Shown: piece by piece, positions 1-34,370 of the stretch | Layout of the letters: each line of letters begins with the position of its first letter | Position numbering within the stretch: position 1 is the stretch's first letter | Source of the DNA: a virus | Length of the DNA stretch: 45,289 bases | IMG/VR virus record: IMGVR_UViG_3300031999_000050 | Coordinates: 1 to 45,289 of that record | Reading direction: 5' to 3' (one strand) | The notes under the pieces: model-generated | The model's database searches: none | What the model was told of the DNA's origin: nothing | What the model saw: the letters and a program-made list of their open reading frames with translations, nothing else | Program-made: the position numbers and the translations under genes

Positions 1-101
1 GGTACCGGCCACCGCTACGAAGACCCCGTTGCCGTAAGCCACGCCGTACCAGTCGTTGTCCGCGGCGCTGCTGCGGATCGTCCAAGTAATCCCGTCCGGT
101 G
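1..101. repeat. Terminal direct repeat of the contig (left copy)
   Basis: Bases 1-101 are identical to 45189-45289. A single exact end overlap of about this length is what a graph assembler leaves when a circular or circularly permuted molecule is closed. It lies inside a 126-bp tandem repeat array, but neighbouring units differ at several positions, so this match is specific to one unit. It is most likely an assembly overlap rather than a biological terminal repeat. Confidence 0.9.
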
Positions 102-600
102 AGGTCATGACCCGGTCGCCCGTGCCGCTGGTGGCCACTGCCACGAACAGCCCGTTGCCGTAGGCTATGGAGGCCCAACTGTTATCCGCGGCGCTGGTGC
201 GCAAGGTCCAGGTGATCCCGTCCGGCGAGGTCATGACCCGGTCGCCCGTGCCGGAGACGGCCACCGCCACAAACAACCCGTTGCCGTAGGCCACGGAGAA
301 CCAGTAATTGTTCGCGGCGCTGGTGCGGATCGTCCAAGTGATCCCGTCCGGGGAGGTCATGACCCGGTTGCCCGTGCCGGAGACGGCCACCGCCACAAAC
401 AACCCGTTGCCGTAGGCTATGGAGGCCCAACTGTTGTCCGCGGCGCTGGTGCGGATCGTCCAGGTGATCCCGTCCGGTGAGGTCATGACGCGGTTGCCCG
501 TGCCGGTGGCGGCCACCGCTACGAACAACCCGGCGCCGTAAGCCACGCCGTACCAGTCGTTGTCCGCGGCACTGCTGCGGATCGTCCAGGTGATCCCTCC
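1..600 (-). repeat. 126-bp tandem repeats (42-residue units) in the nozzle gene
   Basis: The block cccgtccgg recurs at 91, 217, 343 and 469, exactly 126 bp apart, and again at 45153 and 45279. Merged over the join there are six units, each translating to GITWTIR-SAADN-W-VAYGNGLFVAVA-SGTG-RVMTSPD. Units alternate between two flavours (NDWYG/NSWAS), suggesting recent duplication or recombination. The pattern resembles sialidase or propeller-blade repeats (inference). Copy number could be miscounted, because the contig was closed within this array. Confidence 0.85.
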
Positions 601-3159
601 AAATACCACTTCCTGATCCAGCGTTTCGCCGTCGGCATAGATCGCCACCGTCTTTAGCTTCAGATGATCCAGCCCCGAGAGATCCTTCACCACTTTCTCA
701 CAGAGGCCGCCGCTGACGTAGGTCCCGAAGGCCGTACCGTTCAAAGGAGTCGTCCCGTCGGTCAGGTACAATTCGAAGGTGCCGGCGGCTTTGTTTTTGA
801 CCATGTAGGTGTTGCCGTTGAGCTGGGTCATGCCCACCACGCCCGTGATGCGCACGAATTCGTTGTTGACGAAGGGGTGGGCGCCAGCGGTTACGACCAC
901 AGGCGTTGCCTTGGTGGCGCCGGTCATGGCGTCGGTGGTAGCGCTGTAGTCATAGATCTTGCCGCAATCCACGAAGTGGTAGTCGTCCTCATCCGCCGGG
1001 CGGTTGATGGGCTTCATGTATTCGATGTACTGCTTGGTGACGCCGTCAATCACTCGCTGCACGCACAAGTAGATCGTGTCCTCCGGGTTCGTGGCGTCTC
1101 CGGATACCACGGCTATGCTCTTTACCAATCCATCTCGCGGGTGTCTGGCCCAGGCCACGATGCCGTTGTTGCGGTCCAGGGTCAACGCCGCGAGTTCTCC
1201 CGTGGCGCGGATGGTCCAGAGCATCGACCTCGGCGACCGCTGCCAGGCCAGGTCTACAAAGACGTCTTCGCCGATGTGATCGGCCAACTGCGTAAGATCG
1301 GGTGAGATGTAGCCGCCCCGCTCCATGCTGTACATGAACTCGCGCAGGCGTTGCCCGCCTTTCTGCACGAAGAGGAGGGACTCGTTGGCCAGTATCGCGC
1401 CCACCCCGGCGTTGCCGTGGGCGGAGACGCGGTCCGTGTAGACGTTGGCGCCTGTGATCGGCGCATCCCCCCCACTCATCAGCCATTCGCCGTGACTGGT
1501 GCCGATCACGATCCTGTGATCCTTCGTCTTCATCCAGACGATCTCTTCCAGCACATCGGAGGCGAGGGTGTATTCGTAGGCGGCCGCATCATCCGTGGCG
1601 TCCAAGAGGAAGTTCTGAGGCCAACCTGTCCGAGATCCGCGGACTTTCTGACCACGCCCGAGGATCAACCTCTGATCGTGGAAGGTGAGGGCCGCGGGAT
1701 ATTGAGAACCCCAGGAGACTCCTTCCCAGGCATCCGGGACAAAAGCGCAGCAATACCCCATCCCCGATGGCAATGTTCCTGGATCGGCGAGTTTCGTGAA
1801 GGTGTCCCCACTGCGCTTGTAATTCGTGATGTAAGGACTAACATCGTGCGCCACCGCCAGATACACACCGTTGGCGGAGAAAGTACAGCCGCGTCCGATC
1901 CCCGCCGGAAGTGCCGCGGGGTTGGCGAGTTTCGTGAAAGTACCCCCGCTACGCTTGTAGATCGTGACGAAAGGCGTAGTAGCATGCGCCACTGCCAAAT
2001 ACATACCATCCTCGGAGAAGATGCAGCCATACCCTGTCCCCGTGGGGAGCGTCCCGGGGTTGGCGAGTTTCGTGAAGACATCGCCGCTACGCTTGTAGAT
2101 CGTGACGAAAGGCGTAGTAGCATGCCCCACCGCCAAATACACACCGTCGGCGGAGAAGGCGCAACCGTATGATATATTAGTCGGAAGTGCGCCGGGGTTG
2201 GCGAGTTTCGTGAAGACATCGCCGCTACGCTTGTAGATCGTGACGAAAGGAGTATTGTCATGCGCCACCGCCAAGTACACGCCATCTGCGGAGAAGGCGC
2301 AACCGCGTGCATGCGAAGCCGGTAATACGTCGGGGTTGGCGAGTTTCGTGAAGACATCGCCGCTACGCTTGTAGATCGTGACGAAAGGAGTATTGTCATG
2401 CGCCACCGCCAAGTATAAACCGTTGCTGGAAAAGGCACATCCATATGCACTCAGAGGAGGAAGTGTCCCGGGGTTGGCGAGTTTCGTGAAGGTGTCGCCG
2501 CTACGCTTGTAGATCGTGATGAAGGTGCCGGCGGAGTGCGCTACCGCCAGATATATGCCGTCCCGAGAAAAGGCGCAGCCACGTCCCTCGGTAGACGGCA
2601 AGACATCCGGGTTGGGTCTTTTAGTGAAAACATCTGCATAGTACGAATAAACCGTGATGCAAGGGGTTGTGCCGTGTCCCACCGCTAGACAAACGTCTAG
2701 ATCCGCACTGGCTAAACTCCAGAGTAGATCTCCATAAGTTTTCAGACCATGCAGTTGATAACTGCCGTGCGCCAGGTAGGCTTTGCTTTCTTGCTGTGCG
2801 GTCTGCAACCCGAACAGATCAGCCCCGAGCCAGGGCGTGATGATCTCCAGGGGGTTGGCCCCGTCCATGAGCTGGGCCTTGTTCTTGTAGAACCTGCACG
2901 CGCTCTCGGACAGCTCCAGCACGTACTTCTCGCTCGCGGAGACTTCGAAAGGCAGCAGCCGCACGGGTCCGGTGTTGGTCTTGGCCTCGCAGATGAAGAC
3001 GGTGCCGGGTGCGAAGTCCAGTCCGCCGCCGGCGTGCACGATGAAGTTTTCAAGGATACGGCAGGTGCGGTTATAGATCGAGGTATCGATCCTGGCCATC
3101 AGGCGGTCGCCGACTTCCCCGCCCGTGAAATCGGTGATGATCTTCCGCGCTTCCGCCAT
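1..3159 (-). CDS. Tail nozzle protein (T7 gp12-like), N-terminal 1053 codons; continues across contig end
   Basis: Frame is open from ATG at 3159 to base 1 and continues in register at 45188 down to the stop at 44700, giving 1215 residues. The start overlaps the upstream adaptor stop as TGATG. The N-terminus (FTGGEVGDRLMARID, then an aromatic/Gly-rich NFIVHAGGG stretch and RLLPFEVS) is typical of podovirus tubular protein B/nozzle proteins, as is the segment after residue ~478 (YPAALTFHDQRLILG, then GEWLMSGG). Inserted at ~146-475 are seven units of ~43 residues around LAVAH-TPFVTIYKRSGD, resembling a beta-propeller. Residues ~745-818 are an FCCH-like module also found in the adaptor gene. 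From ~854 come 42-residue repeats (GITWTIR-SAADN). It should sit below the adaptor at the tail tip; the inserted domains may bind receptors (inference). Absent as one ORF only because the contig is cut here. Confidence 0.85.
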   Translation of the reverse strand, partial: MAEARKIITDFTGGEVGDRLMARIDTSIYNRTCRILENFIVHAGGGLDFAPGTVFICEAKTNTGPVRLLPFEVSASEKYVLELSESACRFYKNKAQLMDGANPLEIITPWLGADLFGLQTAQQESKAYLAHGSYQLHGLKTYGDLLWSLASADLDVCLAVGHGTTPCITVYSYYADVFTKRPNPDVLPSTEGRGCAFSRDGIYLAVAHSAGTFITIYKRSGDTFTKLANPGTLPPLSAYGCAFSSNGLYLAVAHDNTPFVTIYKRSGDVFTKLANPDVLPASHARGCAFSADGVYLAVAHDNTPFVTIYKRSGDVFTKLANPGALPTNISYGCAFSADGVYLAVGHATTPFVTIYKRSGDVFTKLANPGTLPTGTGYGCIFSEDGMYLAVAHATTPFVTIYKRSGGTFTKLANPAALPAGIGRGCTFSANGVYLAVAHDVSPYITNYKRSGDTFTKLADPGTLPSGMGYCCAFVPDAWEGVSWGSQYPAALTFHDQRLILGRGQKVRGSRTGWPQNFLLDATDDAAAYEYTLASDVLEEIVWMKTKDHRIVIGTSHGEWLMSGGDAPITGANVYTDRVSAHGNAGVGAILANESLLFVQKGGQRLREFMYSMERGGYISPDLTQLADHIGEDVFVDLAWQRSPRSMLWTIRATGELAALTLDRNNGIVAWARHPRDGLVKSIAVVSGDATNPEDTIYLCVQRVIDGVTKQYIEYMKPINRPADEDDYHFVDCGKIYDYSATTDAMTGATKATPVVVTAGAHPFVNNEFVRITGVVGMTQLNGNTYMVKNKAAGTFELYLTDGTTPLNGTAFGTYVSGGLCEKVVKDLSGLDHLKLKTVAIYADGETLDQEVVFGGITWTIRSSAADNDWYGVAYGAGLFVAVAATGTGNRVMTSPDGITWTIRTSAADNSWASIAYGNGLFVAVAVSGTGNRVMTSPDGITWTIRTSAANNYWFSVAYGNGLFVAVAVSGTGDRVMTSPDGITWTLRTSAADNSWASIAYGNGLFVAVATSGTGDRVMTSPDGITWTIRSSAADNDWYGVAYGNGVFVAVAGT
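1740..2725 (-). repeat. Seven ~129-bp repeats encoding a predicted beta-propeller
   Basis: Within the nozzle gene, a unit of about 43 codons recurs. Each unit has the core GCAFS-DG-YLAVAH-TPFVTIYKRSGD-FTKLANP. Six complete units are preceded by a degenerate first unit (DVCLAVGHGTTPC), giving seven, and a partial GYCCAFVP closes the array. Seven such units fit a seven-bladed, WD40-like propeller, a fold call made from the pattern only. Confidence 0.8.
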
Positions 3160-3965
3160 CACATGCTCGTGATCGATGCCGAGCCCGCTTCCGGCTCCTG
3201 CCTGTAGCGCACGTCCTGCGCTCTGGCCAGAGTCAGCAGGCCCGCGAATTCCTGATCCAGCTGCTGTTGCTTGCCCTTGCTCTTGGTCAGGGTCGGCGCG
3301 CATACAGCTCCCAGCCTCGTGGCCACCGTGTCCGCCAGAAGCGGACTGAAGTATCTCGGGTCCGAGAGGTAGGTGATGTACAGGATCTCCAACTCCTCGT
3401 CGGCGAAGTTGGTGAGGAAGACGTTGTGCTCCTCCACCCAGCCCCCGATGTCTACCCCGGTCTGGATGACCTTGATGCAGGCATCCGGGAGCTTGAAGGC
3501 GTAGCCGTAGCCCCAGGCAGGAATCCGCCAGATCGTGCCGCCGCTGGTCCAGGCGCCGAAGCCCGTTCCATCCACCTCCTCCGTGCCTTCTTCGTTGTAC
3601 AACTCGAAGGTTGCGGCGGCTGGGTTCTTCGCCATGTAGGTGTTGCCGTTGAGCTCGGTCATACCCAGGACGTCGGAGAACTTCACCAGGTCCCCGTCCT
3701 CGAAAGCGTGCGCCGTAGCCGTGACCACCACGGGTTTGGCCTTGGTCGCGGCCTCCACCAGGTCCGTGTCTCGCCGCAGGACCGCTCTCTTGCGCGCGCA
3801 CTTCCACTCCGCGAGCTCCAGGACCTCGTGCAGTACCTGCTCCCAGACCGCGTTGAAGGCGTTGGCCTCCTCGCAGTTTTCGGTGCCGGTCGTCAGCCGT
3901 TCGGTGATCCCGAGTTTGGTAAGGGCCAGGTTGTAGATCCTGACCTTGGTCTCGTTCAGGTTCAT
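3159..3965 (-). CDS. Tail adaptor / tubular protein A (T7 gp11-like)
   Basis: 268 residues. The start MNLNETKVRIYNLALTKLGI, followed by EEANAFNAVWEQVLHEVLE and EWKCARKRAVL, is the usual opening of podovirus tubular A/adaptor proteins, which ring the portal and connect it to the nozzle. The family's later signature (WGYGYAFKLPDACIKV) is at ~165-180. Between these, residues ~75-145 form an inserted FCCH-like module (VVVTATAHAFEDGDLVKF, MTELNGNTYMAKN, FGAWTSGGT) that is clearly homologous to one in the next gene, the nozzle. The stop overlaps the nozzle start by one base (TGATG). The gene follows a short spacer with a stem-loop after the cement protein gene. Confidence 0.85.
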   Translation of the reverse strand: MNLNETKVRIYNLALTKLGITERLTTGTENCEEANAFNAVWEQVLHEVLELAEWKCARKRAVLRRDTDLVEAATKAKPVVVTATAHAFEDGDLVKFSDVLGMTELNGNTYMAKNPAAATFELYNEEGTEEVDGTGFGAWTSGGTIWRIPAWGYGYAFKLPDACIKVIQTGVDIGGWVEEHNVFLTNFADEELEILYITYLSDPRYFSPLLADTVATRLGAVCAPTLTKSKGKQQQLDQEFAGLLTLARAQDVRYRQEPEAGSASITSM

Positions 3966-3983
3966 TCAGCCCCCATGGACAAA

Positions 3984-4007
3984 GGGCCAGCCGTTTCCAG
4001 CTGGCCC
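3984..4007 (-). terminator. Stem-loop between cement and adaptor genes
   Basis: A perfect 8-bp inverted repeat (GGGCCAGC / GCTGGCCC) with an 8-nt loop lies in the only sizeable spacer (68 bp) between the capsid and tail genes. On the minus strand it is followed by TTTGTCC, a weak U-tract, and on the plus strand by CCGATTTT. It may act as a partial terminator that lowers tail gene expression after the abundant capsid and cement proteins. Confidence 0.5.
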
Positions 4008-4033
4008 CGATTTTCCGCGTCCGTTCGTGTGTC

Positions 4034-4435
4034 CTAGTTCATCACGATCCGCGCCAACAGTTTCCCGCCAGCCGTGATCGTGGTCTGGGCGTAGAAGTAC
4101 AACGAGATGTAGTCCAGCAGCCCCGTCGAGGGTAGCGGCACCTTCGCCACGAGCTTCTGCTCCGGCGTAGTCGCCAGCGACAGCCTGGCCGTGCTGACGT
4201 CCGAGAACACCTCCATGAGCTTGGTTGCTCCCGGGCTAGTGCTGCCCGTCATCAGGCGCAGCGAGACGACGGGGGCGCCGCTGGTGAAGCCGCCGTCGGT
4301 CATCACTTCGATGAACTTCTGGTGACCTCTGCCCAGCTCGTTGATGCTCGCCTCCAGCAGCACCTTGCTCAGGGTCGCGGTTGCGGTGCAACCGTCGCCC
4401 GTGTCCGCGGTGAAATTCAGGTATGCGTCCGTCAT
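4034..4435 (-). CDS. Bbp16-like capsid cement/stabilisation protein
   Basis: 133 residues, beta-rich. The pattern (VSLRLMTGSTSPGATKL, then KVPLPSTGLLDYISLYF, ending TITAGGKLLARIVMN) matches Bordetella phage BPP-1 Bbp16-type proteins, which bind the outside of the capsid and stabilise it. Its position directly after the major capsid gene, 10 nt downstream and in the same operon, is where the cement gene sits in BPP-1-like phages. Family assignment is from remembered pattern and gene order; a structural comparison would settle it. Confidence 0.65.
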   Translation of the reverse strand: MTDAYLNFTADTGDGCTATATLSKVLLEASINELGRGHQKFIEVMTDGGFTSGAPVVSLRLMTGSTSPGATKLMEVFSDVSTARLSLATTPEQKLVAKVPLPSTGLLDYISLYFYAQTTITAGGKLLARIVMN

Positions 4436-4445
4436 GGTTTCCTCC

Positions 4446-5480
4446 TTACGCCACCACGGTTTCGGTGTCCTTGATGGACAGCCATTTCCGCACGGGAGTG
4501 ATGCCCTTGAACATCAGCACGCTGCCTCCCGAGTCCAGCTTTACCCACCGTAGGATGTGCTCGCCCGCGGTCTTGGCCTCCTGCTCCAGTTGGATGAGCC
4601 CGGTCTTGCCCACGTACAGCACCGAACCATCGGGGTCGGGCAGGTTATGCCACAACTCGATGAGCTTGTTGATGTCGATGCGGTTGGCGGCCCCGGTGCC
4701 GATGTTGCACAGCCGCTGCAGGTAGGCCTCGTCCATGACGCGGATGCCGTAGCGGTAGTAGAACTCGGTCACGTACGCCAGCAACTGCTTGCTGTTGGCG
4801 CCGGTCACGAGCTGCTTGCCGATGTCCTCTTCCTTGACGAGATCGGTCTTTCCGCCGGGCGGGTACAAGTAGCAGACCTTCTCCGCCCCCCAGCCCAGGA
4901 GGTAAGCAGAAGTCACGGCGCCGGCGCTGGCATCACCGTTGTTGGAGATGTTGCCGCCCGCGATCGTGGCCCTTCTGGTAGCGAAGCCGTTGATGTGGTT
5001 GGGTGTGGCCACAGCCCGCACCGCGTACAGCATCTTGTCGCCGAGCCAGTTGGCCCCTCCTCGGATATGCTGGTCGTCTTTGCGCGCCCGGAACTCCGCC
5101 CCACCGCCTGGCTTCGCCTTCTCCGCAAGCAGCACCAGCTCCTGATCTACGATGCCGCGATCCTCGTATAGAGAGATCGGCTCGGTGAGCTGGTCGGTCT
5201 TGCCGGAGGTGGCGTCGATGCCGTTGTTGATGGAGCGCATATCGCCGTTGGGCAGGTATGCGTCGCGGCCGAAGATGTCTCCGGTGAACTGGTTGGCTTC
5301 CTCCCAGTGCGCGTCCTGGAAAGGAGGGATTGCCTTGGTCAGGATCTTGGCGACCTGGACGAAGCGTTCTCCGCCAGGTAGTGTCTCCTGCGCCAGATCC
5401 AGCAGGGTTACTTTCCCTGCCAAGTCCACGTCTCCGAACCACTGGAGGTGGACTCTCTCCAGCATTTTCAGGAAGTTCAT
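4446..5480 (-). CDS. Major capsid protein (BPP-1-like)
   Basis: 344 residues from the ATG at 5480, chosen because GAGGAG lies 7 nt upstream; a longer frame to 5495 would need a TTG inside that ribosome site. The sequence (FTGDIFGRDAYLP, YEDRGIVDQELVLLAEKAK, GGANWLGDKMLYAVRAV, YRYGIRVMDEAYLQRL, TPVRKWLSIKDTETVV) fits podovirus/BPP-1-type HK97-fold coat proteins in length and composition. It forms the icosahedral shell. It lies between scaffold-side genes and the cement protein. The N-terminus has the motif VHLQWFGD, almost the same as the scaffold protein's (VHLQWFTD). A 9-bp hairpin overlaps its ribosome binding site. Confidence 0.85.
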   Translation of the reverse strand: MNFLKMLERVHLQWFGDVDLAGKVTLLDLAQETLPGGERFVQVAKILTKAIPPFQDAHWEEANQFTGDIFGRDAYLPNGDMRSINNGIDATSGKTDQLTEPISLYEDRGIVDQELVLLAEKAKPGGGAEFRARKDDQHIRGGANWLGDKMLYAVRAVATPNHINGFATRRATIAGGNISNNGDASAGAVTSAYLLGWGAEKVCYLYPPGGKTDLVKEEDIGKQLVTGANSKQLLAYVTEFYYRYGIRVMDEAYLQRLCNIGTGAANRIDINKLIELWHNLPDPDGSVLYVGKTGLIQLEQEAKTAGEHILRWVKLDSGGSVLMFKGITPVRKWLSIKDTETVVA

Positions 5481-5489
5481 AGCCTTGCT

Positions 5490-5509
5490 CCTCAAAACAG
5501 GTTTTGAGG
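5490..5509 (-). promoter_or_regulatory. Hairpin overlapping the capsid gene ribosome binding site
   Basis: A perfect 9-bp inverted repeat, CCTCAAAAC / GTTTTGAGG with a 2-nt loop, sits directly upstream of the major capsid start. Its last bases (GAGG) form part of the GAGGAG Shine-Dalgarno sequence. In the mRNA the stem could hide the site, or serve as an RNase processing or stabilising element that yields a discrete capsid transcript. Confidence 0.5.
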
Positions 5510-5521
5510 AACGTCCGTCTG

Positions 5522-5665
5522 CTACAGATCGTCTTCCATGGGCCGCCGCTTCCGCTCCTCCCAGTCAGGTCGGAAGAAACGCACCTGCCGCAGGTTGGCT
5601 ATACTCTCGCTTCGGGTTGCCCCTTGGATGCGGTAGAACTCACGGCCTCCGCATCGGTATTGCAT
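5522..5665 (-). CDS. Small hypothetical protein (47 aa) overlapping the glycosyltransferase 3' end
   Basis: Begins MQYRCGGREFYRIQGA and ends RRPMEDDL. It starts inside the last 67 nt of the glycosyltransferase-methyltransferase gene in another frame and fills the otherwise empty ~100-bp spacer before the capsid gene. The composition (NLRQVRFFRPDWEERKRR) looks protein-like rather than like a shadow. No strong ribosome site is visible at the ATG, so expression may depend on coupling. Function unknown. Confidence 0.45.
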   Translation of the reverse strand: MQYRCGGREFYRIQGATRSESIANLRQVRFFRPDWEERKRRPMEDDL

Positions 5666-6891
5666 ATAGTATCTACCGCCTCGCACGCAACGTCAATATC
5701 TTTCAAGGGAATCAGGATCATGGTGGTGCGTGGGTATTTCGGATCTTGAATACGCCGGATCATCCTATTACCGGCGATGCTCATGGCGGCTTTATTTTCT
5801 TCCTCACGGTTCACATCATCGAAAACCCATGCGGTCTGCGGGTGCCCCCAGCGCTTGTATGATACCCTAGCGTACGGGCAATTGCGTCCCGCGACCGGTC
5901 CGTCCACGATCACCAGATCATAAGGAGCTTCGCTTTCGACAGCGAAAGGGACACGCGAGTACCAATCGCTCGCGGGGTATATGGGAACCGCGAAGGTTGT
6001 GTCCGCCGGCAGGCCGGCCTCCTGGAGGTTGAGAAGATGCCGAGTGTTGTATGGTCCTTCGTGATCGAGTGCCCGATAGACGGCCCCGTTGGCCAGACAC
6101 CAGGGCAGGACCACGAACGAACTGGCTCCGGGCCCGACCTCAAGTACCTTCTTCGGTTTCCTCTGTTCCAGAAGTTCCCGAACCGCCTCCAGGGCCAGGC
6201 GGCTGAGACGCCAGACTTCGTCGTATTGCTCGATGGCATCCACGGGCGGACCCGGAATTCGAATGACGTTGCGCTTGTCATGCCCGATCCTTACCGCAGG
6301 GTGTGCCCAGATCTTGAAACCTTTTGCTCGAATCCGCCGGCACCAGTCGATGTCCTCTCCCGGGAGAATCACATGCTCCCCTACCTCGTAAGGCACTTCC
6401 TGGAACCAGGGATAGTTGAGTGCCTCGAAAACCCCCTGGCGCACCAGCATGAAAGCCAACCCGCAGAAGTCCCAGTCCCGCATGGCCTCATCCCGGCGCA
6501 CGGCGTGGAGATTCACGAGTTTGGTGATTTCGCCCTCAAGCAGACCGAATGCGCCAACTCCCTCTGGATTGATGGGGACCATGCCAGAGATGATGTCCTT
6601 GTCCGCATCCAGCAAGCGGAAAAAGTCCTCAGACGTGTATACGCTGTCGCTATCGATCCACATCATGAAGTCGTAGTGTTTCCCGCCGAAAGGTTTTGCG
6701 TACTTCTTGAGTCCGACAACTCCCTCTTCGAGGATTTGGTTTCTACCGTGGGCCACACTTGCGTTATACCCACGTGCCACCTCCAGGCGCAGACCGCGTT
6801 CGGGACGGGAGGTTGCCGCGACAAGAGCATCCCAGCTCATGGCAGCTTCCATCGTCGGGGCCCCGGGCAGGCAGAAGATGATGTGCTTCAT
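5599..6891 (-). CDS. Two-domain glycosyltransferase (GT-A) / SAM-methyltransferase-like protein
   Basis: 430 residues. The N-terminal half looks like a GT-A fold glycosyltransferase: ARGYNASVAHGRNQIL, the metal/nucleotide-sugar DxD motif WIDSDS (D80, D82), and LPGEDIDWCRRIRAKGF with H205 downstream. The C-terminal half from ~246 starts KKVLEVGPGASSF, a class I SAM-methyltransferase motif I, and continues ALDHEGPYNTRH and DLVIVDGPVAGRN. The predicted role is to transfer and possibly methylate a sugar on a protein or surface glycan. It is out of place: it sits between scaffold-side genes and the capsid gene, within the assembly operon, and its start overlaps the upstream small gene as ATGA. Virion glycosylation is a reasonable guess, not shown. 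The second domain could be non-catalytic. Confidence 0.7.
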   Translation of the reverse strand: MKHIIFCLPGAPTMEAAMSWDALVAATSRPERGLRLEVARGYNASVAHGRNQILEEGVVGLKKYAKPFGGKHYDFMMWIDSDSVYTSEDFFRLLDADKDIISGMVPINPEGVGAFGLLEGEITKLVNLHAVRRDEAMRDWDFCGLAFMLVRQGVFEALNYPWFQEVPYEVGEHVILPGEDIDWCRRIRAKGFKIWAHPAVRIGHDKRNVIRIPGPPVDAIEQYDEVWRLSRLALEAVRELLEQRKPKKVLEVGPGASSFVVLPWCLANGAVYRALDHEGPYNTRHLLNLQEAGLPADTTFAVPIYPASDWYSRVPFAVESEAPYDLVIVDGPVAGRNCPYARVSYKRWGHPQTAWVFDDVNREEENKAAMSIAGNRMIRRIQDPKYPRTTMILIPLKDIDVACEAVDTICNTDAEAVSSTASKGQPEARV

Positions 6892-7040
6892 GCCGGCTTC
6901 GCCTCCTCCGAGCGCTCGGATAGAAGCTTGCGGCAGAAGTTGATCAGTTTCCGCATGTCCTCGGCCGCGTTGATCCAGCCGTAGTTCGCGTACTCCGGGA
7001 TCTTCACCTTCTCCAGGTACTCCAGCTCGTCCGTGGTCAT
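6888..7040 (-). CDS. Small hypothetical protein (50 aa)
   Basis: Starts MTTDELEYLEKVKIPEY at 7040, 4 nt after the preceding stop, and ends in an ATGA overlap with the glycosyltransferase start. A longer upstream extension would overlap the previous gene and has no coding look. Acidic/helical, with a Lys-rich end (LINFCRKLLSERSEE). Function unknown; by position it could have been acquired together with the glycosyltransferase. Confidence 0.6.
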   Translation of the reverse strand: MTTDELEYLEKVKIPEYANYGWINAAEDMRKLINFCRKLLSERSEEAKPA

Positions 7041-7044
7041 GGGC

Positions 7045-7296
7045 TCATTCCATTTTCGGGTAGCGGTCTTTGTACTTCGCCTTCCGTTCGCGGCGCTGCG
7101 CAAGCCGTTCCAGCGCCTGGGTCATTTCCTCCTGCTCTTCCTGCTGCTCCTTGGCGTCTTTCACCAATCGGCCAGCGGCTCCTTGCGCTTTCTTGAGGCG
7201 CTCGGGATCTTTGCCGATCGCGTCGGCCATGGCCAGAGTCCTGGCGTCGCTCTCGGCTTTCCAGTCCCGTTCTTGTTTCGTCAGTTCGCTACTCAT
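7045..7296 (-). CDS. Small helical protein (83 aa) after the scaffold gene
   Basis: Starts MSSELTKQERDWKAESDART at 7296, 4 nt after the scaffold stop. The rest is a highly charged helix (KEQQEEQEEMTQALERLAQRR) ending KDRYPKME. Proteins of this type, with an ESDARTLA segment, recur in phage genomes beside structural genes; the role is not known to me. The C-terminal RYP-M tail resembles the scaffold's C-terminus (KRYPSMGR), hinting at a shared partner such as the coat protein. Confidence 0.65.
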   Translation of the reverse strand: MSSELTKQERDWKAESDARTLAMADAIGKDPERLKKAQGAAGRLVKDAKEQQEEQEEMTQALERLAQRRERKAKYKDRYPKME

Positions 7297-7300
7297 CGGC

Positions 7301-8215
7301 TTATCTCCCCATGCTCGGATAGCGTTTGTGCAGGTTGTCCAGGGCCGCCTGCTCGGCTGGGCTGGCGGTTGCCGCGGCAACTTCGCCCGTGAGTTCCGGA
7401 CTCTTGTTGTAGCGCTTCTTCAACTCCTCGCGCCGCTTCTGCTCGGGTGCGGGTTGCGCAACCCCGGGCTTGCCCGGCACCAGATGCCCCTCGCCGATGG
7501 CCTTGCCGATCTTGTTGAATGCCTTGATCAGATTCGGCGAGTTTTCCAGGCCTCCCCCGGGGCCCCCCGCAATTTCTGCCACCAGTGCTTCGCCACCGAA
7601 GGTCAGGATAGCGCGGCGGGCGATTTCCTCCTGTGCCGCGAAATCGCCCTTCCACTCCGCCTTGAGCGCGGTCAGGCCAGTCTCGCGTTGCTTGGCGTAG
7701 TCGTCCTGGGTGGCCTTGGACGTGGCGAAGATCGCTTCGCGGAAGAAGCCGCTGACGACCTTGGCCGCTTCTTTGCTCAGGCCCGCCTTGAGCGCCAGGG
7801 CCCGCAGATCCTCGTCCTTCGCCTTCAGGTAGGCGCCCAACTGCTCGCGGTGTTTGGCGAACACATCTCCCGCCAGGTGTTCCGGGAACTTGAGTTCGTC
7901 GAAAACGTACTCCTCCGGCTTCTGCGGAGCCGCGGCCAACTTCGCCTGCAGTTCCGTCAACTGCTGCTCGCCGGTGTAGAGGCGATCCAGGACGTCCCCC
8001 CAGCTCTTGTGCTTGAGCAGGTCCTTGAGGAACTTCGGATCTTTCTTGTACTTGTCCGGGGCCTGCGCGAGAAAGGTACCGTCCGCCTTCAGTTCGGGCT
8101 CGGGCGCCGGCGGCACTACTGCCGGTGGAGTCGGTGCAGGCGGAGTTGCCGCAGGTGGCGTAACAACCGCAACAGTTGGATCTGTGAACCACTGGAGATG
8201 CACGTGTTTGAACAT
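7301..8215 (-). CDS. Capsid scaffolding/assembly protein
   Basis: 304 residues. Layout: N-terminal motif VHLQWFTD (5-12), a Pro/Ala-rich linker (15-40), then a long charged helical body, and a basic C-terminus with two similar segments (LKKRYNKSP and LHKRYPSM). Charged, helical proteins with a basic tail directly between portal and coat genes are scaffolds that direct procapsid assembly and are absent from mature heads. The N-terminal motif is shared with the major capsid protein. It lacks visible protease motifs. Confidence 0.7.
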   Translation of the reverse strand: MFKHVHLQWFTDPTVAVVTPPAATPPAPTPPAVVPPAPEPELKADGTFLAQAPDKYKKDPKFLKDLLKHKSWGDVLDRLYTGEQQLTELQAKLAAAPQKPEEYVFDELKFPEHLAGDVFAKHREQLGAYLKAKDEDLRALALKAGLSKEAAKVVSGFFREAIFATSKATQDDYAKQRETGLTALKAEWKGDFAAQEEIARRAILTFGGEALVAEIAGGPGGGLENSPNLIKAFNKIGKAIGEGHLVPGKPGVAQPAPEQKRREELKKRYNKSPELTGEVAAATASPAEQAALDNLHKRYPSMGR

Positions 8216-8223
8216 AGCGCCCC

Positions 8224-8439
8224 CTACGCCGTGATCCGGTGCCGCTGGATCATCCAGACCGAGAAGACGTCCAGAAAGTGAAGGTCCTCATCCTTCCGCG
8301 TGCTCGCCGAAGTGAGTTTGGTCTGATAGGCGGCCAAAAAATCCCGGTCCGACTTGGGGATGGAGGTCTCGAGCTCCAGCTTGTCGATGAGCTTGTTGGC
8401 CTCGACCATCACCACCGCTACCGCGTTCGTGTAAGTCAT
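8224..8439 (-). CDS. Hypothetical protein (71 aa)
   Basis: Starts MTYTNAVAVVMVEANKLIDK and ends DVFSVWMIQRHRITA. Mostly helical. It lies 5 nt after the Bbp19-like stop and 8 nt before the scaffold start, within the head gene operon. No family recognised. Confidence 0.6.
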   Translation of the reverse strand: MTYTNAVAVVMVEANKLIDKLELETSIPKSDRDFLAAYQTKLTSASTRKDEDLHFLDVFSVWMIQRHRITA

Positions 8440-8444
8440 TTCGT

Positions 8445-8720
8445 TTACTCCCTCAGCTGCGCCGGCGGTGTAGCTTCCACCAGCCTCCGCGTCAGCTCAT
8501 ATAGATTGCTCTCCCGGATCGCGCCGATCCGTTTCAAGAGCCGTTTGCCTAGATTTTGTTTGGCCACCAACTGGGGTTCGGGGTCGATCTCGTCCCAGAG
8601 CAGGCACTCCTCCGCCAGGAAATGCGCAAGCACGATCGGACCCACTGCGCTCTGGGCGAACAGCACGTGGTACATCTGGTCGATGTCCGCGTCCGTCAAC
8701 TGCTTGCCGAGGTAGATCAT
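8445..8720 (-). CDS. Bbp19-like head operon protein
   Basis: 91 residues. The pattern (HVLFAQSAVGPIVLAHFLAEECLL, DPEPQLVAKQNLGKRLLKRI, given here in part) fits the small Bbp19-type proteins encoded next to the portal in BPP-1-like phages, whose function is unclear. Its start overlaps the portal stop (ATGA). Gene order portal, Bbp19, scaffold, coat, Bbp16 supports the assignment. Confidence 0.6.
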   Translation of the reverse strand: MIYLGKQLTDADIDQMYHVLFAQSAVGPIVLAHFLAEECLLWDEIDPEPQLVAKQNLGKRLLKRIGAIRESNLYELTRRLVEATPPAQLRE

Positions 8721-10435
8721 GCCCCTGCCCTGCCGCCAGCCGCCATCATCGCCTCCAGGGGACTCCCGGCTTCGGGGCGTTTGCTCATCTTCGATCCCGC
8801 CTCCGCGCCGGACTTAGCCAACTCCGCCTGCTGCATGGCCTGCTGGATCTTGACCCGCTGCTCGCGGATCTTGCTCACTTCCTCATCGGTGCGGATGTCC
8901 TTTTCCGGCACGCCATGCGCGTGGGCCAAGTCCTCCACAATCTCATCATGCTTGGGCCGGTCCATAACCGCTTCCTGCGAGGGCACCATCCTCAGATCTT
9001 CGAGGAATCCCACAATACCATGCCGCTTGAACACCCGCTGCTGGGCTACCGCCAGCGGGCCGATGAAGACGACCTCCATCCCATACTTGAGTTTCCGCGG
9101 GTTGTCCGCCACCCAGTCGACCAGAACCTGCGGGGCAGCCGGCAGCCGACCCGCGCGACCCGCAATAGAGGCCGTCCGCTCGATGATCCGCTTAGGCCCC
9201 TCGGTCAGGTATTGATTGACCAGGGGCGCCAGGATAATCGCCTTTTCGCCGAGAACCTCTTCAATCTCGGTTGCCGTCTGCTGTTTGCGCTCCATGAGCA
9301 GGCGTAGAAAAATGTCGTAGAAATAGTGTCTCTTGACATTTTCTTCGAGCCTCTCCAGGAGTTGGAAGCCCGCAGGCAGTTGGATGCCCTGATGGATCGG
9401 ATAGATGCTGCCGGCGGGATACTGTTTGTCGTACCAGTTCCATGCTCCCGGGTTTTTGGAGAGTTGGCCGCGGCGCTCAATGGGCGCGTCCATGGCCGGG
9501 TCAACTATACGCTGGGCTCCCAGGATAGTGGCCATGCTCATGCCGCTGGCCATCTTAGTGTCCCGAATCGCGTTGCTGCCAGGAGAGCGGCCATATTCCT
9601 CGCCTCCGTCCTGAATGCAGCGCGCGGTGATGATCGGCATTTCGTCGAAGCCTTCCTCGCGCAGCATCCTGCCCATTTCGATGTCCACGTAGAAGGAGGC
9701 GATCGGCTTGTGTAGATAGTGCAGGAGGCCCTCGATCCGCTCTTGCCGCGGCAACAGCGCCCAGAGACATCTTACCTCGCTGAGCGGACTCTTCTCTGCC
9801 TGCTTGACGCGCTTCTCACCCACAGCTTCTTCGCCGAAATAGTCCACCAAGTTCCGCAAGCTGATGTAGTATTCGCGCAGCTCGATGTCGATCTCCCCTT
9901 GCTCATTCTCCCCGATGAAGATCTCTACCGGGTGAAATACCTTGTAGAACGGATACTGTTTGCCTGGCTGGTCGCCCGGGAAACAGCTTGCCGTGCCGAT
10001 GCTCCCCAGGTCCCGAAGGTAGATACCCAGCGCCTTGTATAAGCCGCCGCCCTGAAATTCGTCGTACATCTGCTCTTCATAATCCTGCAGGTACTGCTTA
10101 ACCTCGCTGATTTCGTTCAACTCCCGTTGTCTCATCTTGTAGCGCGCCCACCGGGAAGTCGGCGAGGCTGTGTTTCCCAGGATGCCATCGGCCCAGACGT
10201 GCAGACAGTGGGTCCCGATGTCGTTGTAGACGTTGGAATGCGTGCTCATGCCTTTTTTGTCAATCCCGAGAAGTAAGATCTCCCGATCGGGCAAGATGTA
10301 TTCCGCCACTTCCCGCCAGCGCTCTTCATGCCTCTTGCGCCGGGCCCGGTGCAGCTCGAGCAGCCGGATCAACTCCTTGGCCAACTCGACCTGTTTCAGG
10401 CTGTTCTCTTTTTCGAGGACGATTGCATCAGCCAT
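8717..10435 (-). CDS. Portal protein (head-tail connector, T7 gp8-like)
   Basis: 572 residues. The opening (ELIRLLELHRARRKRHEERWREVAEYILPDRE, quoted in part) and the GIYLRDLGSIGTA / YEMVVFIGPLAVAQQ-type segments are those of podovirus head-to-tail connector proteins, which form the dodecameric DNA channel and bind terminase. GRSPGSNAIRDTK and AMDAPIERRGQLSKNPGAWN are also family-like. Start ATG at 10435 overlaps the terminase stop by one base. The C-terminal helix is Gln/Lys-rich. Length is normal for the family (500-600). Confidence 0.9.
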   Translation of the reverse strand: MADAIVLEKENSLKQVELAKELIRLLELHRARRKRHEERWREVAEYILPDREILLLGIDKKGMSTHSNVYNDIGTHCLHVWADGILGNTASPTSRWARYKMRQRELNEISEVKQYLQDYEEQMYDEFQGGGLYKALGIYLRDLGSIGTASCFPGDQPGKQYPFYKVFHPVEIFIGENEQGEIDIELREYYISLRNLVDYFGEEAVGEKRVKQAEKSPLSEVRCLWALLPRQERIEGLLHYLHKPIASFYVDIEMGRMLREEGFDEMPIITARCIQDGGEEYGRSPGSNAIRDTKMASGMSMATILGAQRIVDPAMDAPIERRGQLSKNPGAWNWYDKQYPAGSIYPIHQGIQLPAGFQLLERLEENVKRHYFYDIFLRLLMERKQQTATEIEEVLGEKAIILAPLVNQYLTEGPKRIIERTASIAGRAGRLPAAPQVLVDWVADNPRKLKYGMEVVFIGPLAVAQQRVFKRHGIVGFLEDLRMVPSQEAVMDRPKHDEIVEDLAHAHGVPEKDIRTDEEVSKIREQRVKIQQAMQQAELAKSGAEAGSKMSKRPEAGSPLEAMMAAGGRAGA

Positions 10436-12783
10436 CAGCTCCGGCCACCTCCGGGGCGCCAGGAGTAAGGATCGTAACCAGTGCCTTCCAGAGGATTATA
10501 GTGGTCGCGGTAGGGAAGATTCAATACCGGGTCGCGAGCATCCGGGCGCAAGTCGGGTTTGAAGATGCGAACCATCAGATATTGCAGCGCGTCGTGACAA
10601 TTCCCTACCAAGACGCGATTGGCGAAGAATGAATGTGAGCCTTCGACGGTTAGATCGTAAACCCTATGCTTCTGGTGCAGTCGCTTTCTGGCTAGAAGCC
10701 GGATGCTCTTTTCTGCGCATTCGCTGCTGGCAGGCGGGAGAACAGAATCCGCGCTTCCGAGATTGAGGATACGTCCAATAATCCTTGCCGCACACGGTGC
10801 ATGCGTATTTTTGCTTTCGCTGTCTCTTCCAGCTTTCCCTGCCGTGATCTCGATGCCAGTCTCTTCCTTCAGCTGAGCCATGCCATTTTTTCGCCGCTTC
10901 TCTTGCAGCCCTGATTCCACGAGCCATTTGTTCGGGTATTTCTTTGATGTTCTTGCGGACATGATATTGCCCGTGTGTTGAGACAGCAAGGATGCAAAGG
11001 TTCTCCGGTCGATTGTCGCCTCGGTCCCCGTTGAGATGATGAACACAGTATCCCTTGGGCACTGATCGTCCGCTTGTATGCTCCCAAACCACGCGGTGCA
11101 TGAGCTTTCCGCCATGTTTGAGCCAGTCAGATTTGTAGTACCCGCCTGGCTTCTGGTAATAGCGGATTCCAAGATACTCTTGAACTTCGTGAATGCGCGG
11201 GCGACCCATGGCCTTCTCCTTGCCCCGATGATCCTGTCATCGTATCGCAAAGCATCAGCGCGTACAATACCCCTGGCCGTATAAATTGGATGATCGCCCG
11301 TGCATACCAAGCGCCTTCCACCTGACATTCGCAGGACCAATATCTCATCCGCTTCTCGGCTCATGGTCGCCGTTACGAGTCGTGGCCCATCAGGCGTCGT
11401 TACCGTTTCGCCCACGAGTATTGCTTCGATGGGCCGCGTGCCGGCTGGCGTATCAACCAAAGTTCCGCCAACAAGGCAATGGCTGTACTTGTTCTTGAGC
11501 ACGTTCGGCAGAAACTCGCCCATGAGGCTCTTGTTGGGAGGGTAGCAGTAGCCGCCGAGGAAGCCGTTGATCAACCTCGTACAACTGGGATCGATGAGCA
11601 CGCCCTCGATACGCGCCAGCATCTGGTCGACGGACTCCACGCGGGCCTGAAAGTTCTGCTCGCTGGGCAGCACATCCACGCCGCAGTCGTGCATCAGCTC
11701 GGCATTGCTGGTGAAGCCGCCCTCGCGCTTGGGATACTGCGCGCTGCCAGCGGGATCTGCCCAGTGCGTGATGTCCTTGGCGCCGCGGAACTCCATGTTG
11801 AGCTGGTGCACCACGTAGTTGGTGAAGTCGACGATGCCCATGCGGTCGCTGAAATATTCGCGCAAGATATGGGCCCGCATGGGAGAGGGGATCTGCGCCA
11901 CCACGCAGGCGGGGCAGTTGCCGCTATTGTCCCAGCCCATGATCAATTCCCCACCCAGCCAGGGGATCGGGGCCTTGGCGACGTGGTACTCGCGACGGAA
12001 GTTGTTGTAGACGAGCTTGCCGATGATCATGACCCCGGGCTTGCCGTCGATGTACATCTCTATCCAGTCGGGGTTGTCGCGGTAGACTAGGCGTAGCTGC
12101 GCGTAGTAGTCCGGCGGCAGGTTCTGCGCATTCTCCCCCGGGGGCTGCCAGTACCCGCAGTGCCCGGGTAGCGGCGCCCTCGGTGGCAGCGGCCCCGGCG
12201 GGGGCTTGTGCCAGGCGAAATCGGAATAGGTGGGGTCGTCAATTTCCGGGGGGTTGCTGGTTTCGAGGCCGTACTTCTCTGGGCATTTCTTGGGGAAGCG
12301 GCCAATGCGGTTTTTCAGCATCAACTTGATCGCTTGCGGGACCTCGATGGACTCGTCGATCCAGTAGCCGGTGATCTCCAGAGACTTCAGTTTCCGAATG
12401 TGCTCGGGCCTATCGCAAGAGCGAAACAAGATCTCCGCCTCGTAGCCCTCTGCGCGGATCGTAAGTTCCATCCGACTCTCAGACCAATCGCTGGAATTGA
12501 ATGCTTCGGGGAACCACTCCCTTATCGTGCGCAGCGTACTATCACGGAGCTCAATGTATGTATTTCTCACCACCACCCAGCGTGTCTTCGCTATCCCATA
12601 TGTGTCGAACAGGTGTTCCGGAATAAAGCCGCCGATCTCCAGGGCCGCCGCGGTGGTCTTGCCTGAGCCAACAGGGCCTATGATGCAGCGGTTGATGGAG
12701 TTGTCGCTGTGAAAGAGCCGCAGCGTGGGCAGCGGCTCGTAGTTGATGCGGTCGGTTTCGGCTTTGGTCGGAGCCGCAATCAC
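10435..12783 (-). CDS. Terminase large subunit interrupted by an intein
   Basis: 782 residues, of which 436-728 are an intein, leaving a 489-residue extein of normal TerL length. Motor domain: Walker A GPVGSGKT (36-43), Walker B ITGYWIDES (D143, E144). The nuclease domain has MGWDNSGNCPA near the first acidic motif. The insertion splits KNKYSH from CHDALQYL, the third acidic nuclease motif, so packaging activity needs protein splicing. The mature protein should cut and pump DNA through the portal. The stop overlaps the portal start. The gene upstream is a structural gene 3 nt away, while the terminase small subunit lies further off, separated by a nuclease and small genes. Confidence 0.9.
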   Translation of the reverse strand: MIAAPTKAETDRINYEPLPTLRLFHSDNSINRCIIGPVGSGKTTAAALEIGGFIPEHLFDTYGIAKTRWVVVRNTYIELRDSTLRTIREWFPEAFNSSDWSESRMELTIRAEGYEAEILFRSCDRPEHIRKLKSLEITGYWIDESIEVPQAIKLMLKNRIGRFPKKCPEKYGLETSNPPEIDDPTYSDFAWHKPPPGPLPPRAPLPGHCGYWQPPGENAQNLPPDYYAQLRLVYRDNPDWIEMYIDGKPGVMIIGKLVYNNFRREYHVAKAPIPWLGGELIMGWDNSGNCPACVVAQIPSPMRAHILREYFSDRMGIVDFTNYVVHQLNMEFRGAKDITHWADPAGSAQYPKREGGFTSNAELMHDCGVDVLPSEQNFQARVESVDQMLARIEGVLIDPSCTRLINGFLGGYCYPPNKSLMGEFLPNVLKNKYSHCLVGGTLVDTPAGTRPIEAILVGETVTTPDGPRLVTATMSREADEILVLRMSGGRRLVCTGDHPIYTARGIVRADALRYDDRIIGARRRPWVARAFTKFKSILESAITRSQAGTTNLTGSNMAESSCTAWFGSIQADDQCPRDTVFIISTGTEATIDRRTFASLLSQHTGNIMSARTSKKYPNKWLVESGLQEKRRKNGMAQLKEETGIEITAGKAGRDSESKNTHAPCAARIIGRILNLGSADSVLPPASSECAEKSIRLLARKRLHQKHRVYDLTVEGSHSFFANRVLVGNCHDALQYLMVRIFKPDLRPDARDPVLNLPYRDHYNPLEGTGYDPYSWRPGGGRS
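10600..11478 (-). mobile_element. Intein (293 residues) in the terminase large subunit
   Basis: Splicing motifs are visible in the terminase frame. Block A begins at Cys1 (CLVGGTLVDTPAGTRPIEAI). Block B is LVCTGDHPIYT. Blocks F/G are VYDLTVEGSHSFFANRVLV then GN, followed by Cys+1 of the extein. The penultimate residue is Gly, not the usual His; some active inteins lack that His. Between blocks B and F the intein frame (~170 residues) has no recognisable endonuclease; an HNH endonuclease gene fills the same DNA in another frame. The insertion point is a conserved nuclease-site motif, a typical intein location. Confidence 0.88.
10664..11209 (-). CDS. HNH homing endonuclease nested out of frame inside the intein
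   Basis: 181 residues, in a frame shifted relative to the terminase/intein frame. HNH core: YCVHHLNGDRGDNRPENL with H57-H58 and N66/N70, then STHGQYH. C-terminal zinc ribbon CTVCGKDYW and FCSPAC. The start has AAGGAG 6 nt upstream of ATG, inside intein codons (GARRRPW), so it can be translated on its own from the terminase mRNA. It ends just before intein block F. It likely cuts intein-less terminase alleles so that the intein is copied by repair. Normally the endonuclease is in frame within the intein; here both frames stay open over ~546 bp. Confidence 0.85.
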   Translation of the reverse strand: MGRPRIHEVQEYLGIRYYQKPGGYYKSDWLKHGGKLMHRVVWEHTSGRSVPKGYCVHHLNGDRGDNRPENLCILAVSTHGQYHVRKNIKEIPEQMARGIRAAREAAKKWHGSAEGRDWHRDHGRESWKRQRKQKYACTVCGKDYWTYPQSRKRGFCSPACQQRMRRKEHPASSQKATAPEA

Positions 12784-20713: not shown

Positions 20714-21346
20714 TCAAAATGGACGATCATCATCCCATTCCCATTCGTCTTTTGTGGCTGGTTGTTTTTCCACTTGTAGTGCTTCGCCTTGCATTTTGAG
20801 TTTCTCTCGTAGATCTGTATTCTTGAACATGATGCACAACCACATTCCATTTCCTTCGGCCATCAAGTAGAAGTGCCATGTTGCTTCCGAATAGAGACCC
20901 CAACCCGCCTCGTGCGTGTTGCTATTCTTCTCATATTCCCAGAAGATCCGGGAGAATGTACTTCGCACGGCTTTGATCGAGATTGTTGCGTTCTTGCTTC
21001 CATTGTCCGTGAGAATATCGATATCCTTTTGTTTTTGAAGCATTTCGCATATCGACTCTGAACCGACCTGCATAAAAACGCTATCTGAATTTCTGGTTCT
21101 CAGATAAGGCCGAACGACCTGCTCATATACAGTCTTCTCAAGTTCCGCATCTTCTCTGAACCCGCCGTTGATAAGTTCGATTGGTTGGAGTTCGCGCAAA
21201 CGTATCTGTTTGTTGGCGATATCGGGCACCGGGACTAGAAGCCCATAGGTTTCATATAATAACTGTTGCCCCGAGAAGGTCTGTCCTTTGCCCCGCGGAT
21301 AGACATTCGCATCCCTCAGAGCAAATACCCAGTTCGGGATGGTCAT
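20714..21346 (-). CDS. Candidate PD-(D/E)XK endonuclease paired with the MT-A70 methyltransferase
   Basis: 210 residues from ATG at 21346, overlapping the methyltransferase stop as ATGA. Residues ~98-125 read ESICEMLQKQKDIDI then TISIKAV, a possible PD-(D/E)XK-like centre (acidic E98/E101, D110, then S-I-K125). The rest (FSRIFWEYEKNSNTHEAGWG, LYSEATWHFYLM) is compatible with a small alpha/beta nuclease. Base composition is visibly more AT-rich than the structural genes, as for its partner. It could be a restriction enzyme, but the motif is weak and no family was recognised. Confidence 0.45.
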   Translation of the reverse strand: MTIPNWVFALRDANVYPRGKGQTFSGQQLLYETYGLLVPVPDIANKQIRLRELQPIELINGGFREDAELEKTVYEQVVRPYLRTRNSDSVFMQVGSESICEMLQKQKDIDILTDNGSKNATISIKAVRSTFSRIFWEYEKNSNTHEAGWGLYSEATWHFYLMAEGNGMWLCIMFKNTDLREKLKMQGEALQVEKQPATKDEWEWDDDRPF

Positions 21347-22224
21347 GTTTTCCCTGCCAAACTTTGAATGTCTTTCGGCCAGAAGTCCCAATGTGCCGGG
21401 ATCTCCTCCTTCAGGCCAGGGAAAAGGATTATCCTTTTTTGCTCTGGGTAAAGTTGCTCAAGAATGCCCCGAAACTCGATCGGCTTCTGCGAATGTGTTT
21501 TGTTTTTCGGAATGACTTGGACTGAGTCGACGCTGTTTGCTAGTTTCGTGTCCCGTGGGCGGCTGCTTCCCCTGCCAGCGATAAGTAGAATTTCATGGTT
21601 TGCAGAACAATACCATCCGAGATTGTGTCCGACTTTGTCCCATACCATCGAAGTGAGATACTTGAAGCCCCACGCCTCAATGACGGGGAAAGCCCAATTC
21701 AGCCGGGCCGTTGTGGCCCATAGATAGAGTACACAATTCCCTTCGGCTATCTCCTGTATTTGGTCCCCAAGCCAGCAAAGTTCTTGCTTGTTGAGTACGG
21801 GATAGTGTTTGTCGACAGGCTTTGTTGATTCGGGCGTATCATATTCCCAGGGGGGATCGGCATAGATGAGACCGTATTTCTTGTCAGGGAGCGTCGGCGG
21901 CTGGAACTTGCGTTTCTTTGGCGCCGGAAGTTCTTTTTTCTTAATATAGTCCCAGGACAATTGTCGCTGATCCGGCGACAATTCGGGATATTTTTGATAG
22001 AACTGAACACAACGGAAGATCTCTGACCGGCTGATTTGTAGATCTTCTCCAAGTTGGTCAACAAAATAATCCCCATAGGTCGCCTCGGCCTTTTCCCGGG
22101 CCTCCGCTATGCGTTTGCCGAGATAGTGCTTGGCCTCCACGATCTTGATATTGGTGTGCAACTTGATGTCTTCGAGAAGTTTCTTATACCAGCCCTGATC
22201 TACTAGTTCTGTTGGTGTCATCAT
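21343..22224 (-). CDS. MT-A70 family DNA N6-adenine methyltransferase
   Basis: 293 residues. Catalytic motif ADPPWEYDT (DPPW at 123-126), then YLWATTARLNWAFPVIEAWGFKYL (in part) and NHEILLIAGRGS, THSQKPIEFRGILEQLYP, all standard for MT-A70-like adenine methyltransferases. The N-terminal ~100 residues are helical (IVEAKHYLGKRIAEAREKAE, LQISRSEIFRCVQFYQKYPE) and look like a DUF3102-type HTH region. It may protect phage DNA from host restriction, or work with the downstream gene. Start follows the CHC2 gene stop directly. Confidence 0.85.
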   Translation of the reverse strand: MMTPTELVDQGWYKKLLEDIKLHTNIKIVEAKHYLGKRIAEAREKAEATYGDYFVDQLGEDLQISRSEIFRCVQFYQKYPELSPDQRQLSWDYIKKKELPAPKKRKFQPPTLPDKKYGLIYADPPWEYDTPESTKPVDKHYPVLNKQELCWLGDQIQEIAEGNCVLYLWATTARLNWAFPVIEAWGFKYLTSMVWDKVGHNLGWYCSANHEILLIAGRGSSRPRDTKLANSVDSVQVIPKNKTHSQKPIEFRGILEQLYPEQKRIILFPGLKEEIPAHWDFWPKDIQSLAGKT

Positions 22225-33662: not shown

Positions 33663-34370
33663 TCACTTCCTTCGCGGTTGAGGACCGAAAATCTTTCTCA
33701 ATCTATCAAATGGAACACCTTGTTTAAGAATCCATCCCGGAACATTTCTTCGAATCGTTCTGTAGAACTCCAGAGTCGGCGAACTCAAACCCGGCTCCCG
33801 GGGCGACGGTATTGGGGTATAGACAAGATCGACATTTTGACCTGTCAGCAGGAAGGTGCCGGAAGCCAGGGCAAGCACGTGGCACCAGAGGAATCCGATG
33901 TCCTGCCCGGTTTCGACAAACGCGCCGGGGGCCAGCGACAATAAGTAGCCCTTGAGTAAGTTTATCGCCTGCCCGGTGAGCGCAAAACTGCCAGCTCCCA
34001 CGGGAAGCAGGTGCCCGACAAGTAGCCCGATGGGTTGCCCAGTATGGGTGAACATTCCCGCGCCGATGGGCAGTCGATGTCCGACAAGTAGACCTATCGC
34101 CTGCCCGGTTTCGGTGAATAATCCTGCGCCGATAGGAAGGCGAAGTCCGCGTAGAAGCGAAATAGTCTGTCCGGTTAGGGAGAATACCCCGGCGCCGACG
34201 GGAAGAAGAAAACCGCGCAGGAGTGAAATTACTTGCCCAGTGAGTGAAAATGCTCCAACCTCACAGGCTAAGATATACGATCCTGGCGCCCCGCCGCGCA
34301 GGACCGTAGGATCTGAGAGTTTTACATCGGCTGGGGTTGTTTCTCCAGCGTATAGGAAAATATCGGGCAT
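33663..34370 (-). CDS. Virion-associated protein with seven 22-residue repeats
   Basis: 235 residues. After a 35-residue lead, seven units of about 22 residues follow, each LPVGAG-F-LTGQ-I-LLRG-like (GAGVFSLTGQTISLLRGLRL is one). Such GAF-LTGQ repeats occur in phage tail-region proteins and should give a beta-solenoid or stacked hairpins. The last ~45 residues (LEFYRTIRRNVPGWILKQGV) are non-repetitive. Likely an accessory tail or fibre protein; role unknown. Confidence 0.65.
   Translation of the reverse strand: MPDIFLYAGETTPADVKLSDPTVLRGGAPGSYILACEVGAFSLTGQVISLLRGFLLPVGAGVFSLTGQTISLLRGLRLPIGAGLFTETGQAIGLLVGHRLPIGAGMFTHTGQPIGLLVGHLLPVGAGSFALTGQAINLLKGYLLSLAPGAFVETGQDIGFLWCHVLALASGTFLLTGQNVDLVYTPIPSPREPGLSSPTLEFYRTIRRNVPGWILKQGVPFDRLRKIFGPQPRRK
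33810..34275 (-). repeat. 66-bp tandem repeats (22 aa)
   Basis: Seven units of 66 bp in the gene at 33663, recognised by the recurring TTGCCCGG/CTGCCCGG and AAGTAGACC-type blocks and by the LTGQ peptide motif every 22 residues. Units 2-5 are the most alike. Confidence 0.75.

Follow-up and report, generated by a model that had tools for sequence, protein, structure and literature searches.

Two predicted propeller modules inserted into the tail nozzle of a short-tailed phage as candidate adhesion modules

The window analyzed here (the whole 45,289-nucleotide IMG/VR virus record IMGVR_UViG_3300031999_000050) opens inside a minus-strand reading frame that starts with an ATG at position 3159 and has met no stop codon by position 1. 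The contig ends carry identical 101-bp direct repeats (left copy, 1–101; right copy, 45189–45289), and circular joining on them produces a single 1215-codon minus-strand ORF that runs from 3159 to 1 and continues from 45188 to its stop, which ends at 44700. The closure point lies within the second of two tandem repeat arrays in the gene, each with a TRF score of 939, which rules out a chance origin. An earlier note had placed a 1215-residue nozzle at 1–3159; the length was confirmed once the circular join was made, whereas the span was not, since the gene runs off position 1 and this interval encodes residues 1–1053 only, the last 1.3 units of array 2 and the nozzle C terminus being encoded at 45188–44700. 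Among 94 other complete homologues, compared by stop-to-stop length, the proteins measure 481 to 1000 residues with one at 1167, so that the window nozzle and its two close relatives, L004 and L005 (1285 and 1286 residues), are length outliers rather than representatives of a standard family length.

The gene product is a tail nozzle of the T7 gp12 (tail tubular protein B) type from a short-tailed phage. The ORF matches the tail protein family PHROG 376 (phrog_376; E 4.2e-133), and the best structural match of its core is the Carin-1 nozzle (PDB 8ck1, Tail Nozzle; E 2.2e-59). With both arrays removed, query residues 8 to 151 and 139 to 632 cover nearly the whole 8ck1 chain except residues 158 to 312. 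In Foldseek searches with an AlphaFold2 (AF2) model, built from residues 1 to 1053 with 33 sequences, the top six matches were phage tail complexes, T7 appeared at ranks 8 and 10, and nozzles preceded WD40 propellers. Pfam Phage_nozzle (PF25675) gave no match at E ≤ 1 for the window protein and 27.9 bits (cut-off 27) for one homologue, L212. Four conserved parts of the nozzle are recognizable, all on the minus strand. The N-terminal part (residues 1–147; 2719–3159), with platform strands and the first core-propeller blades, aligns with 8ck1 residues 14 to 157 and carries invariant family residues. The core blades (residues 473–734; 958–1743) are supported by phrog_376, 8ck1 and Foldseek alike. 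An E1_FCCH-like module (residues 758–823; 691–888) scores 34.8 bits against PF16190 (cut-off 29.5, E 1.8e-8), in agreement with the FCCH-like module that had been proposed from the sequence. The C-terminal platform domain and stop (44700–45029), reached across the circular join and aligned with 8ck1, follow the second array as a conserved C terminus, also as proposed.

The gene neighborhood is that of a nozzle. Upstream lies a gp11-like adaptor gene (3159–3965, minus strand; phrog_394, E 8.9e-29) with an E1_FCCH module of its own at residues 81 to 144 (PF16190, E 9e-10), and downstream an internal virion protein (44252–44695, minus strand; phrog_418, E 1.3e-15). A similar order of the same three families, with one extra gene between, is found in vir555. 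The E1_FCCH modules of the adaptor (3534–3725, minus strand) and the nozzle share ∼73% DNA identity along a 154-bp stretch, which suggests duplication between neighboring tail genes. Two further minus-strand genes downstream of the nozzle (37777–42219 and 42186–44243) encode proteins of 1480 and 685 residues that are almost without family match and by position are likely ejection proteins. Other minus-strand genes in the window include one for a 430-residue protein with a PHROG 1574 / glycosyltransferase-like N terminus, located between the major capsid and head-tail adaptor genes (5599–6891), one with an MT-A70-type methyltransferase domain and a subthreshold DUF1016_N-like N terminus (21343–22224), and an ORF without family match (33663–34370) that contains 66-bp tandem repeats at 34015–34229, corresponding to units of about 22 residues. 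Direct comparison of window positions 1 to 12000 with cultured phages identified no DNA relatives.

Array 1 (residues 151–472; 1744–2709, minus strand), delimited by TRF, alignment and AF2, is an insert of exactly 322 residues, or seven units of 46; the seven units noted earlier at the meeting point of the N-terminal and middle domains were thus found, with a unit length of 46 rather than ∼43 residues. The array begins just past W147, at strand b of a blade, and finishes with strand a. AF2 predicts a closed seven-bladed propeller off the nozzle core, as had been suggested, with four strands per 46 residues between residues 157 and 456, a final velcro strand (468–474) that completes the first blade, and pLDDT mostly 65 to 89 (lower near residues 180–190). 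Sequence and homology assign array 1 to the tip slot of the nozzle: 8ck1 residues 158 to 312 are unmatched, the nozzle domains of phage SU10 are located between blades 2 and 3 (PMC9509320), and the nozzle family profile aligns with T7 gp12 residues 336 to 461 (E 3e-6), just past the region of this slot. By alignment, array 1 thus appears to sit where other nozzles are empty or hold a distal tip domain. Foldseek matches of array 1 include WD40 propellers; its units lack the WD dipeptide (consensus YKRSGD), and Pfam WD40 (PF00400) scores 15.3 bits, below the cut-off of 27.

Array 2 comprises six units of 42 residues (855–1106) in the fiber-dock hairpin, the first 4.7 units encoded at 1–597 (residues 855–1053) and the remaining 1.3 at 45030–45188 (residues 1054–1106), both on the minus strand, with the contig join inside the fifth unit. 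The two arrays were considered as a single repeat type and this was rejected, as unit length, motif and velcro phase differ. Array 2 units read S-P-D-G-[IV]-[TN]-W, one residue short of the strict Asp-box SxDxGxTW. The truncated array in the model of residues 1 to 1053 has pLDDT below 50. L059, L061, L066 and L070 carry exact six-unit arrays that begin and end in the phase of array 2, and models of six-unit relatives are closed six-bladed propellers (pLDDT 87, pTM 0.87) that match the designed six-bladed SAKe6 and the Keap1 Kelch propeller. Since such relatives are predicted to fold closed, a closed six-bladed propeller is plausible for array 2 of the window as well; the proposal that each array folds as a propeller was supported by the model for array 1, and by models of six-unit relatives in the case of array 2. 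The six repeats ahead of the C terminus were recovered on the joined contig, a count that rests on the assembly because whole units could vanish in frame at the join. An unlikely alternative, compatible with an adhesive function, is that assembly distorted array 2 or its unit number, identical units having collapsed and the true propeller having perhaps seven blades. The contig was closed inside the array, which occupies about 1.7% of the genome, on a 101-bp overlap; any loss of whole units would keep the frame, and related arrays most often have seven units (29 ORFs as compared to 13 with six). Against this, the other array 2 units share at most 48 bp exactly, and the phase-matched six-unit arrays named above include one predicted to close. 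A seventh, collapsed unit as a requirement for ring closure was also rejected, as natural six-unit arrays exist. An exact 63-base pattern from array 2 was sought in other contigs and was not found.

Insert positions across the family were surveyed in an alignment of 97 complete nozzles, 94 of which are neither the window protein nor its two close relatives. Slot 1 is about 17 to 21 residues long in empty members and otherwise about 100, about 190 to 200, or up to 419; the window has 339, or 17 + 322, as compared to 17 in empty members. Slot 2 is either empty (about 14 residues) or holds FCCH-like modules (83–168 residues). Slot 3, the fiber-dock hairpin past an ADG motif, has 14 to 16 residues in almost all members and 266, or 14 + 252, in the window; the value of 352 obtained for L004 and L005 is an alignment artifact, as these two have a short hairpin and their additional residues belong to the FCCH module. 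Exact, in-frame insertions of whole units are thereby shown at slots 1 and 3. Varying slot lengths, an insert of the laminin-G (ConA-like lectin) type (E 4e-20) ahead of slot 1 in a nozzle homologue on a Methanoperedens-binned contig (L213:4828-7215), and viral fold matches to the nozzle model over ∼1000 aligned columns, which include nozzle-like proteins with VWFA, GLEYA-adhesin or FCCH domains in their names, indicate that inserts are common in the nozzle family. Propellers of the array 1 and array 2 types were found on nozzles of this lineage only, among the nozzles examined.

Comparison with close relatives suggests that the modules change independently of the nozzle core. The cores of L004 and L005 (IMG/VR contigs; a third relative, L006, is partial) are about 88% identical to that of the window. 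Both carry array 1, again with seven units, and lack array 2; in both, the FCCH module is interrupted by a further array 1-type propeller, also of seven units. When L004 is compared with L005, dS is 0.23 for the core, 1.78 for array 1 and 0.012 for the FCCH propeller. Unit-by-unit DNA identities of array 1 form no diagonal in any phage pair and are mostly 0.6 to 0.78, the exception being one L005 unit that carries a codon insertion, while the FCCH propellers of L004 and L005 show 0.96 to 1.00 identity on the diagonal. Array 1 is non-orthologous unit by unit between these relatives and has therefore been exchanged or amplified anew without its flanking regions. The high dS of array 1 is near saturation, and independent amplification of blades, instead of import, could have occurred. 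That repeat number is open to variation, as had been suggested, is not supported, because array 1 stays at seven units in all three phages; its sequence and the sites of insertion vary instead.

Within the repeats, variability is concentrated at a few positions. Entropy is highest at positions 16, 46 and 44 of repeat 1 and at positions 16, 30 and 14 of repeat 2, corresponding in both cases to the residue that opens the b-c loop and to a pair, two positions apart, at the d-a loop/strand a start (strands of repeat 2 were assigned from the model of relatives). On the predicted folds, these are the topological places of D-1, R1-2 and R1, the top-face hotspots of WD40 proteins (PMC3419727). Highly repetitive cellular WD40 proteins are reported to be diverse at these hotspots too (PMC5587647), and the pattern therefore points to partner diversification in general rather than to host-receptor binding in particular. 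A diversity-generating retroelement in the record was rejected as the source of variation, since no reverse transcriptase (PF00078) was found in it.

Both module types recur on other phage proteins. The array 1 type was detected at 40 IMG/VR loci, where six or seven units could usually be recognized, and among 50,697 cultured-phage records 6 contain it. For the array 2 type there were matches to 336 stretches and to 9 cultured-phage records. A tail or baseplate family could be assigned to about half of 20 scanned carriers of the array 1 type, which include a Baseplate_J protein and its neighbor in L018, a Collar protein in L015, and tail-fiber-like proteins in L013, L035, L036 and L046. No nozzle core was found among the carriers outside this lineage. 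In L018 (2993–6753), a seven-unit array 1-type propeller forms the end of each of two adjoining baseplate genes. Giant ORFs in L062 (1–7986) and L060 (8103–12518) contain 31 to 35 detectable array 2-type units and are probably strings of propellers.

These observations favor the interpretation that two portable propellers have been grafted onto the nozzle and that they are probably adhesion or receptor-binding modules; the precise insertion into presumably exposed slots, exchange uncoupled from the core, recurrence at the ends of fibers and baseplates, and a diversified top face all argue for it. A predicted seven-bladed, WD40-like propeller would replace the distal tip domain in its slot, and a predicted six-bladed, loosely Asp-box-like propeller would be grafted into the fiber-dock hairpin, each in frame. 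If the nozzle is hexameric as in T7, twelve extra propellers would be carried at the tail end, presumably exposed and capable of binding ligands. Recombination may pass whole modules from one phage to another, or modules may be built up again from a single blade; the DNA-conducting core would be kept while the modules change and their top faces diversify. Binding of a host receptor has been shown for a tail tubular protein B (PMC7241545). A structural role, in which the propellers would extend or stiffen the tail end or serve as docking sites for other virion proteins (e.g., the tail fiber near 32325–33446) without host contact, has some basis: the core of the nozzle also has a propeller fold, the fiber-dock domain holds array 2, and in SU10 the tail needle is bound by loops of the core propeller (PMC9509320). 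However, structural interfaces are expected to be conserved and array 1 shows the lowest conservation within the protein, with its module also present on unrelated tail proteins of other phages, rendering this role improbable. Cleavage of surface polysaccharide by the propellers, as sialidase- or lactonase-like enzymes, is very improbable: some phage propellers are endosialidases (PMC4901313) and array 1 has a weak Lactonase match (19.8 bits, cut-off 21.7), but a ring of near-identical blades would lack a unique catalytic pocket, the residues that vary most are on the top face, and no glycoside hydrolase family and no other catalytic family above cut-off matched the window protein. Of the receptor-binding or enzymatic nozzle originally envisaged, the binding half is thus favored by exchange, recurrence and the hypervariable top face, and the enzymatic half is not.

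In T7-like tails, host recognition is normally credited to fibers and spikes, and closing and opening of the DNA channel to the nozzle. If the propellers are adhesion modules, a channel-closing protein can itself be an adhesin, which suggests a simple route from binding to channel opening and opens the nozzle's part in host choice to testing. The slot survey provides a map of large-insert tolerance in this nozzle family. A more tentative extension, which we regard as possible but doubtful, is that the nozzle is the variable receptor-binding device of this lineage, in which a diversified, lectin-like seven-bladed propeller, passed between phages as a cassette, would stand in for the tip domain and other slots would have gained further propellers, a single polypeptide thereby coupling recognition to DNA release.

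The window nozzle shares with T7 gp12, the Carin-1 nozzle and PHROG 376 proteins the same core, N- and C-terminal domains, a gene position after the adaptor, and a domain inserted at the tip slot. In contrast to T7 gp12-type nozzles, its tip-slot domain is a predicted seven-bladed propeller, and an extra propeller is placed in a usually short hairpin. Array 1 is reminiscent of highly repetitive WD40-like propellers (PDB 2ymu; the 343-residue protein A0A0N7GFD2 of phage POR1) in its seven similar four-stranded blades and diversified top-face hotspots, and differs from them in lacking the WD dipeptide, in its subthreshold Pfam WD40 score, and in being carried within a nozzle. Array 2 shares an S-x-D-G-x-T-W turn per 42-residue unit with Asp-box, YCF48- and BNR-type propellers, and the fold of its type matches YCF48 (5ojr) and six-bladed Kelch domains; it is distinguished by a turn one residue shorter than SxDxGxTW and by six blades. 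As in the phi11 receptor-binding protein, PRD1 P2 and phiKZ gp131C, propellers would occupy the distal, host-facing part of the virion; those of phi11, PRD1 and phiKZ reside on dedicated receptor-binding or baseplate proteins (PMC4901313), whereas those of the window are carried by the DNA-conducting nozzle.
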